Origin: Parcubacteria group bacterium GW2011_GWC2_48_17
GTDB taxonomy: Bacteria > Patescibacteriota > Minisyncoccia > Phycocordibacterales > UBA10002
Length of the DNA: 44,283 nt
Reading direction: 5' to 3'
NCBI GenBank assembly: GCA_001003605.1
Contig: LCPL01000011.1
Location: forward strand, 1-44,283
The number at the start of each line of letters is the position of its first letter. The stretch's first letter is position 1. The translations under genes were made by a program, and so were the position numbers. A model generated the notes under the pieces. The model saw only the letters and a program-made list of their open reading frames with translations. It made no database searches and was not told the origin of the DNA. Below, one piece after another: positions 9,995 to 11,400 of this stretch.

Positions 9995-10231
9995 CTAGCT
10001 AATCTTCAACAATTGCTTTATTTTCGGCTGGTTGAATCCGACTACGAGTTCCCCATCAATAGCGATTACCGGCACGCCCATTTGTCCGCTTTTCTCAATC
10101 ATTTCCTTCCGTCGTTCCATATCCGCCCCCACATTATGTTCGGTGTATGCCACCCCTTTTTCCTTGAAAAAGGCCTTGGCCGCATTGCAGTACACACATG
10201 TCGGAGTGGAATAAATAGTTACTTGCGCCAT
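9995..10231 (-). CDS. Glutaredoxin-like protein
   Basis: YSTPTCVYCNAAKAFF (CxxC), MGVPVIAIDGELVVGFNQPKI. Confidence 0.9.
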   Translation of the reverse strand: MAQVTIYSTPTCVYCNAAKAFFKEKGVAYTEHNVGADMERRKEMIEKSGQMGVPVIAIDGELVVGFNQPKIKQLLKIS

Positions 10232-10495
10232 CGTAATGTTGAGTTACTCTGTTAATAATTAATCCGAACGTCTATTTGCACACTAGTGGTGCTAAAAACG
10301 ACACCGCGGGGCATTAGACTCTGCGAGCCACGCTGAACTTGTTTGCGCGCGGGCATGTAGTATTCGTATGAGCGGCGTTCGTGGTGCCGCGATCATATCT
10401 ACCCACAGTGAGATATGATGACACAGTATATCAGAAGACCAGCAAAAAGAATCTTGCGGAAAGATATTTCCGTGGTTAAAACATATGAACATATT

Positions 10496-10708
10496 GCGGG
10501 TAGCGAGAATCTCTCCCCTTACAGGACTGCTGTTTGTAACTAATCGCTTCGCTCTTAGACAAACAGGGAGCCTACATGAGCAGTACAGGTTTCCCATCCA
10601 GCGCTTTTCAGAAAAAGTGGAGGATAAGGGAGAACCTTTTCGATTCTCGCCGTAATGTGCGAAGGTACATTCCTACCTCGCAAAATATATTCGTTTCACT
10701 CATTATTT
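10496..10708 (-). repeat. Hairpin-rich segment trailing the interrupted tRNA-Gly, ending in a 16-nt copy of its 3' end
   Basis: gcgggtagcgagaatc at 10496-10511 and 10710-10725; hairpin 10679-10712; inverted copy ttcgattctcgc at 10639-10650; CTGTTTGT..ACAAACAG hairpin ~10530-10566. Confidence 0.7.
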
Positions 10709-10745
10709 TGCGGGTAGCGAGAATCGAACTCGCGTCTCATGCTTG
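10709..10745 (-). tRNA. 3' half of interrupted tRNA-Gly
   Basis: CAA-GCATG-AGAC-GCGAG-TTCGATT-CTCGC-TACCCGC-A; acceptor strand perfectly complements the 5' half at 11012-11018. Confidence 0.8.
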
Positions 10746-10984
10746 TCCCGAAAAATACAGAGCGCGATGCGCGATGATATTTTTCGAGGATCCCGTGGCA
10801 AGAAGCGAACGAACAAATTGATTATGCGAGTGGCGGGAATCGGACCCGCGCCCTATGCTTGGGAAGCACATGTACTGCCACTATACTACACTCGCAATGT
10901 TACCATAATTCACCACTCCGACAAATCGCACTCTGTATAACGGGATCGCCGAAAACATAGTCGCTTCGCTTCTTGTTTTCGGGA
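10746..10984 (-). mobile_element. 239-bp inverted-repeat element inside the tRNA-Gly anticodon loop
   Basis: Ends TCCCGAAAA..TTTTCGGGA; 44-50-nt imperfect TIRs (TCCCGAAAA..CGATCCCG and TCCCGAAAAA..GGATCCCG), each itself a hairpin. Confidence 0.65.
10825..10895 (-). tRNA. tRNA-Gly(CCC)
   Basis: GCGAGTG..TGTGC-TTCCCAA-GCATA..GCGGG-TCCGATT-CCCGC-CACTCGC-A. Confidence 0.9.
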
Positions 10985-11018
10985 GGAAGCACGCATTCTA
11001 CCACTAAACCATACCCGC
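10985..11018 (-). tRNA. 5' half of interrupted tRNA-Gly
   Basis: GCGGGTATGGTTTAGTGGTAGAATGCGTGCTTCC; anticodon-stem strand CGTGC complements GCATG in the 3' half. Confidence 0.8.
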
Positions 11019-11025
11019 GTTATTC

Positions 11026-11400
11026 TTAGCGAAACAAATTAAAGAATCTTGAAACGAGCGATTGTTCTTTAATATTTTGTTCCGGTTCGGATTTCTTATT
11101 GTTAACAAGTACAACCATTCTCTCACCGGGTCTTGCTACCTGAAATTGTTCCCTAATTTCTGTCTCAATTCCTTCCGGCGTTTCTAGGCGCGCGATATCG
11201 GCGCGAAGACGGTCTTCGCGAAGATTGAGATTAAGTAGTTCTGCTTCAACTCTATCGAGATTTTTGCGACTCTCGTGCTCTTTAGCGTAGAGTCCCCACG
11301 TAGCCTTGCCTACTAGCACTAGCAAAAAAAGCAAGAGGAGAAGCGTTCCTTTGGAGTACAGTACTTTGCGAATGTTCCGTTTTCGTTGGAAATCCCTCAT
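11026..11400 (-). CDS. FtsB/DivIC-like septum formation initiator
   Basis: N-terminal TM plus coiled coil (LDRVEAELLNLNLREDRLRADIARL). Confidence 0.7.
   Translation of the reverse strand: MRDFQRKRNIRKVLYSKGTLLLLLFLLVLVGKATWGLYAKEHESRKNLDRVEAELLNLNLREDRLRADIARLETPEGIETEIREQFQVARPGERMVVLVNNKKSEPEQNIKEQSLVSRFFNLFR

Follow-up and report, generated by a model that had tools for sequence, protein, structure and literature searches.

A small hairpin-ended insert that probably disrupted a tRNA-Gly(CCC) gene in a Patescibacteria genome and carries a probable replacement tRNA

Why would an intact tRNA gene lie within the anticodon loop of a broken tRNA gene that has the same anticodon? This question is raised by a window of 44,283 nucleotides (the whole stretch of DNA that we analyzed) from Parcubacteria group bacterium GW2011_GWC2_48_17, a bacterium with a tiny genome that is available as a 29-contig draft. 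The original prediction described a tRNA-Gly that is split by a 239-bp insert with its own intact tRNA-Gly(CCC), and our reexamination agrees with that description base for base and at every coordinate. We argue that the insert is probably a small non-autonomous mobile element that disrupted the resident tRNA-Gly(CCC) and that supplies a replacement tRNA-Gly(CCC) of another lineage.

The locus is best read on the minus strand. The gene for DivIC (septum formation initiator; 11026–11400, Pfam PF04977) lies directly upstream, followed by the 5' half of the outer tRNA (10985–11018), whose last base is C35 of the anticodon loop (TTCC|). Next come the insert (10746–10984) and the 3' half of the outer tRNA (10709–10745), which begins |CAAGCATG, with a glutaredoxin gene (9995–10231, also on the minus strand; identified by Pfam PF00462 and from relatives) further downstream. 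In several relatives, too, DivIC is recognizable by eye next to tRNA-Gly(CCC). If the outer halves are joined, they give a tRNA of 71 nt that forms 7 of 7 acceptor pairs and has a fully paired anticodon arm (CGTGC-TTCCCAA-GCATG, anticodon CCC) and T arm (GCGAG-TTCGATT-CTCGC). ARAGORN calls the joined flanks tRNA-Gly(CCC). The inner tRNA, or cargo (10825–10895), is on the minus strand as well, parallel to the outer tRNA; it is found by ARAGORN, by Rfam (64.6 bits), and in the genome's tRNA set. The two tRNAs are identical at just 54 of 71 positions, which implies that they belong to different lineages.

The prediction also suggested searching relatives for an uninterrupted allele, and G010, from the same genus, has one: the joined outer tRNA is present there without interruption and is identical at 71/71 positions. 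This empty site, along with the catalogue of homologous elements described below, defines the extent of the insert. Where the insert meets the target (TTCC|insert|CAA), the target sequence does not extend into either end of the insert, which makes the insertion precise and free of target duplication. The split arrangement is not due to chance, given the exact copy in G010, a predicted fold that is stronger than in all shuffles, and homologous ends that recur around other tRNAs in independent assemblies.

Where did the cargo come from? In G016, which belongs to another family, the tRNA that resides between DivIC and glutaredoxin matches it at 69/71 positions. The cargo is also identical to the cargo of an element in G004 whose ends have diverged, which implies that the ends and the cargo have different histories. 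The genome has 46 tRNA matches, and on the extracted loci, ARAGORN found no Gly tRNAs other than GCC, TCC, and the inner CCC. Similarly, a pattern for an intact Gly(CCC) anticodon arm matched once in the genome; the cargo is the only intact CCC tRNA that we found.

A separate tRNA-derived repeat lies downstream. The outer tRNA ends in 17 nt (GATTCTCGCTACCCGCA, 10709–10725) that are repeated 214 bp away at 10495–10511, with an inverted copy of the T arm (GGCGAGAATCGAA) between the two repeats. We noticed comparable tRNA-tail repeats downstream of tRNA-Gly(CCC) in G035 (L039) and other genomes. The repeat at 10495–10511 may be a separate small element or the remnant of an island at the 3' end of the tRNA. 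Another reading in the original prediction, a nested and decayed array of tRNAs, is wrong for the main feature, although there is this separate duplication of the tRNA tail.

The insert is organized around two hairpins. On the minus strand (10984–10746) its termini are TCCCGAAAA...TTTTCGGGA, and its natural orientation, with the TTG| target at the left, is the plus strand: TTG|TCCCGAAAAATA-hairpin-GGATCCCGT...cargo...ACGGGATC-hairpin-GTTTTCGGGA. The left-end hairpin (TCCCGAAAAATA...TATTTTTCGAGGATCC, 10746–10793, plus strand) adjoins the target TTG, and the right-end hairpin (TCCCGAAAAC...GTTTTCGGCGATCC, 10943–10984, minus strand) is inverted relative to it. Both hairpins are supported by covariation. 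Across 27 distinct pairs of arms, 95.8% of positions are paired; when the partners were shuffled 2000 times, the mean was 66% and the highest value 76.4%. The covariation is strong, with several types of base pairs at each position. There is also a central stem, visible in the sequence and present in long copies, between GGATCCCG (10788–10795, plus strand) and GATCCCG on the minus strand (10941–10947).

Besides these stems, the hairpins are complementary to the flanks of the cargo. The left-hairpin segment ATACAGAGCGCGAT (10755–10768, plus strand) is complementary to the cargo-adjacent segment ATACAGAGTGCGAT (10925–10938, minus strand) at 13 of 14 positions, and CAAGAAGCGAACGA on the cargo's other side (10799–10812, plus strand) is complementary to the right-hairpin segment CAAGAAGCGAAGCGA (10961–10975, minus strand). 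The long copies show the same interleaved arrangement, in which the left hairpin pairs with the far-side flank of the cargo and the near-side flank pairs with the right hairpin: mean scores were 19.4 and 19.7 for a copy's own pairs, 11.9 and 13.0 for cross pairs, and 9.5 and 9.8 for shuffled pairs. (It is missing from 2 of 13 copies, L191 and L217.) Because the complementarity is interleaved, the long copies can adopt two mutually exclusive folds, which suggests selection on a single-stranded form, either DNA or RNA. The minimum free energies were lower than for every shuffle (z = -3.60, -4.29, and -4.01).

If the insert is a mobile element, then its ends should be found elsewhere, and the original prediction proposed looking for other copies of the terminal repeats. 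A pattern for one end matched in 9 of the 397 genomes of the order. The family's ends, TTG|TCCCGA-hairpin ... hairpin-TCGGGA, surround tRNA-Leu(CAG) in G055 and tRNA-Leu(TAG) in G251; they bracket tRNA-Ala(TGC) in G023, G035, G122, and G012, and tRNA-Gly(TCC) in G201, as well as the window's tRNA-Gly(CCC). G085 has the ends without a tRNA. Scanning 85,462 species genomes with a related pattern gave 25 loci, of which we judged about 17 by eye to be true members. Nearly all of these are from Patescibacteria (Taylor-, Lloyd-, Lipton-, Jorgensen-, and Gottesmanbacteria, and unnamed Parcubacteria or Microgenomates). One member is from a metagenome-assembled genome (MAG) that is labelled Nanoarchaeota, and two cargo-less members are from MAGs that are named only "bacterium." L208 has a sequence identical to one in G012, which is from the same genus as the window's genome; judging by this identity, G012 is a member of Candidatus Taylorbacteria. 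All of these copies were found with patterns based on the ends, and unusual members may be missed. In collections of phages and plasmids and in IMG/VR, we found only weak matches to tRNAs or a single chance match to the pattern.

The minimal form of the element is a twin hairpin of 54–57 bp with no cargo, TCCCGA-x-x'-TCGnGGATCCnCGA-y-y'-TCGGGA. Several copies lie between genes in G201, which also has a 56-bp copy inside the gene for RNase P RNA (L242, 1501–1556; RF00010, 102 bits). G023 has two short copies within a tRNA-Ala that was already broken. And at L206, one element appears, by eye, to lie inside a hairpin of another.

To describe the tRNA-carrying form, we curated 16 copies, not all of which are independent events. 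All 16 contain an intact cargo tRNA for Gly, Ala, or Leu, and in all 16, the flanking tRNA halves or remnants share the cargo's isotype (decayed flanks were identified by eye). The cargo is parallel to the outer gene, whichever way the element faces relative to the tRNA. Joining the flanks restored a tRNA that ARAGORN recognizes in 6 of the 12 testable copies: the window, L069, L213, L216, L220, and L191 (whose anticodon loop is odd). The outer tRNAs of the rest have decayed, so the outer gene is not maintained while the cargo is kept. If the outer gene is dead yet still fully paired, as in the window and some others, then insertion would have to be recent. The elements are 212–249 bp long, and the copy at L191 is 1173 bp; besides a tRNA, it has a short reading frame, which does not resemble a transposase by eye. 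The empty site, the Ala and Leu homologues with cargo of the same isotype, and the decay of outer tRNAs all favor the first reading in the original prediction, in which an element disrupts tRNA-Gly and supplies a substitute.

The window's element sits directly 3' of a TTG that is read antisense to the anticodon loop of the tRNA-Gly (CTTG|GGAA), and insertion follows TTG in either orientation. All of the tRNA insertions from the TTG-anchored pattern have this flank by construction, and it was also present in the tRNA insertions from an earlier pattern that fixed only one base of the flank. Outside of tRNAs, the flank in G085 reads GTG, and short copies have G on one side. As for the enzyme, Y1 transposases are encoded by the window's genome (G000) and by 6 of the 8 other carriers, and are absent from G012 and G055. 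None of the Y1 genes that could be located had a clean pair of the element's ends (twin hairpins) around it.

We propose that a two-hairpin element inserts into the anticodon loop of the resident tRNA-Gly(CCC), without target duplication, and brings along a complete and parallel tRNA-Gly(CCC). The outer tRNA would be dead upon insertion. The cargo tRNA would be transcribed via the outer gene's transcription unit and would take over decoding; transcription from the broken gene's unit fits the parallel orientation. Replacement would make insertion into an important gene survivable and would make the element hard to lose. We speculate, with less confidence, that the element moves as folded single-stranded DNA by the action of an enzyme in trans. 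A bolder idea is that the break in a tRNA gene and the arrival of a parallel replacement of matching isotype are linked by mechanism, instead of being a by-product of which insertions survive, which would make this a new category of element. The matching tRNA would be copied or captured during insertion into the loops of structured RNA genes, and the interleaved pairing between the ends and the cargo's flanks would be the driving switch. We view this coupling as a tentative suggestion that is probably not correct.

We also considered a homology-driven event, in which the cargo arose by local duplication, template switching, or recombination among tRNA-Gly genes, and the hairpins are by-products. 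This would explain why the cargo's isotype always matches and its orientation is always parallel, and in L220 from Jorgensenbacteria, the 3' parts of the inner and outer tRNA-Leu look identical. Furthermore, two other types of insert (CCCTTAAAA.. in G003; CCCCGTTAGA.. in G060 and G248) also place Gly(CCC) within Gly(CCC) at the same or an adjacent site. However, homologous ends are found around three isotypes, without cargo between genes, within an RNase P RNA gene, and nested in one another, and insertion follows TTG in either orientation. Also, the window's cargo is much closer to the resident tRNA of G016 than to the outer tRNA (69/71 versus 54/71). A homology-driven origin seems improbable to us.

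The other types of insert deserve a closer look. The insert of G003 (CCCTTAAAAATTT...AAATTTTAGAGGG; L063) puts its Gly(CCC) inside the anticodon loop of Gly(CCC), and its site is empty in G002 (L040, from the same genus). G060 (L061) and G248 (L130) have a second hairpin-ended type, CCCCGTTAGA...TCTAACGGGG, and in G060 there are two nested levels. The inserts in these three genomes are at or adjoining the anticodon-loop position of the window's insert. Most of the copies found with TTGCCCCGTTAGA have no tRNA, and such copies are scattered through the order. We considered whether the CCCCGTTAGA...TCTAACGGGG type belongs to the family of the window's element and rejected this, as its ends differ. 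In G160 (L289), an insert of the second type has a tRNA-Ala(CGC) that adjoins other tRNAs. The flank may be a remnant of tRNA-Val, so the matching of isotypes may fail in this second family.

We also noticed smaller disruptions of tRNA-Gly. At L103, L142, L061, and L088, T-arm insertions or copies of the tRNA tail have a small hairpin with a TGTAA loop (for instance, GAAACTGTAAGTTTC) that sits just before GATTCTC.. of the tRNA-Gly. And at L140, L120, L165, and L142, there are more broken copies of tRNA-Gly adjoining an intact one; in these, short hairpins are inserted into the D arm or the anticodon stem.

Another explanation is that the insert is an intron at the RNA level, and that the outer tRNA is spliced, by itself or by enzymes, so that both tRNAs are functional. 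Consistent with splicing, the outer halves in the window are perfectly paired, several outer Leu tRNAs are recognized once they are joined, the predicted RNA fold brings the outer halves together, the element's hairpins covary, and the insertions are located in structured RNA genes (tRNA and RNase P RNA). But searches of the genome for the tRNA splicing endonuclease (PF01974) and RtcB (PF01139) found neither, while the controls were positive. In the insert and the further regions that we scanned, no Rfam model for a group I intron (even at lax E-values) or other intron matched; apart from tRNAs and RNase P RNA, scans for introns, riboswitches, and known motifs gave nothing but chance matches. 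(Low-scoring matches to tmRNA were set aside as similarity to the T arm.) In the predicted fold, there is no bulge-helix-bulge at the junction, where the anticodon stem and the terminal stem are joined by a CC/C internal loop. Finally, the outer halves are mutated or lost in about half of the copies, and cargo-less copies are also found between protein-coding genes. The spliced or trans-assembled tRNA of the original prediction, for which it proposed looking for group I introns and bulge-helix-bulge motifs, is thus disfavored, and we consider it very unlikely, also in the form of a self-splicing RNA of a novel kind. As for misassembly or a chimera of tRNA repeats, the window does come from a 29-contig draft, but this is exceedingly improbable, because the same architecture, with homologous ends around other tRNAs, recurs, each time with different flanks, across many genomes that were assembled independently, and because an exact empty site exists.

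If the insert is a mobile element, then what is it for, and what is it like? tRNA genes are favored landing sites for mobile DNA, which usually rebuilds its target. Members of this family seem instead to put a carried copy in the target's place, and the host would then depend on the element. The same kind of element in tRNA genes for Ala and Leu suggests a strategy of breaking an important gene and supplying a substitute, which would be a natural system for the horizontal replacement of important tRNA genes. It would also account for nested tRNA genes that annotation of Patescibacteria has missed, and the conserved, covarying ends offer a handle to search for the transposition enzyme. Among the results listed by searches of the open-access literature, there was no description of such elements, but there are several partial parallels.

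Genomic islands and phages are integrated into tRNA genes by tyrosine recombinases, and the 3' part of the target is restored by the att repeat. The window's element likewise targets a tRNA gene and would preserve tRNA function, but it supplies a whole second tRNA and leaves the target broken. Its junctions have no att duplication or other repeat of the target, and it has no integrase, for which 239 bp leaves no room. Archaeal split or intron-containing tRNAs are also made of two halves with complementary leaders, and they rely on a bulge-helix-bulge and on an endonuclease plus a ligase; at our locus, we saw no bulge-helix-bulge, and the genome lacks the endonuclease and RtcB. Rickettsia palindromic elements are small palindromic inserts that are scattered through reduced genomes. 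They differ in sequence and in host group from our family, and to our knowledge, they do not carry tRNAs. Group I introns occur in the anticodon loops of bacterial tRNAs (PMC4090602), and share this position with our element, which has no Rfam match as an intron, often has a decayed outer tRNA, and has a tRNA inside.

IS200/IS605 elements and their non-autonomous derivatives resemble our element in that each end has a subterminal hairpin, the left end is flanked by a short sequence that is fixed (PMC6006769), and insertion is precise, which for our element is 3' of a fixed short sequence and without target duplication. In contrast, our element does not encode a TnpA (Y1 HUH) between its ends, its ends are inverted copies of each other, and it carries a tRNA. 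REP/REPIN sequences, with TnpA_REP (RAYT), have hairpins whose foot is a GTAG/GTGG tetranucleotide (PMC8266576, PMC6006769). As with our 54–57-bp twin hairpins, the unit is a short inverted doublet of hairpins, with several intergenic copies per genome, that is non-autonomous and is believed to be mobilized in trans (PMC8266576, PMC6006769). In our family, however, the foot is TCCC..GGGA in nearly all copies instead of GTAG/GTGG, and among the Y1 genes that could be located, we found no RAYT gene flanked by the ends; what sets it further apart from REPINs is its tRNA cargo, its interleaved complementary segments, and its sites within RNA genes.
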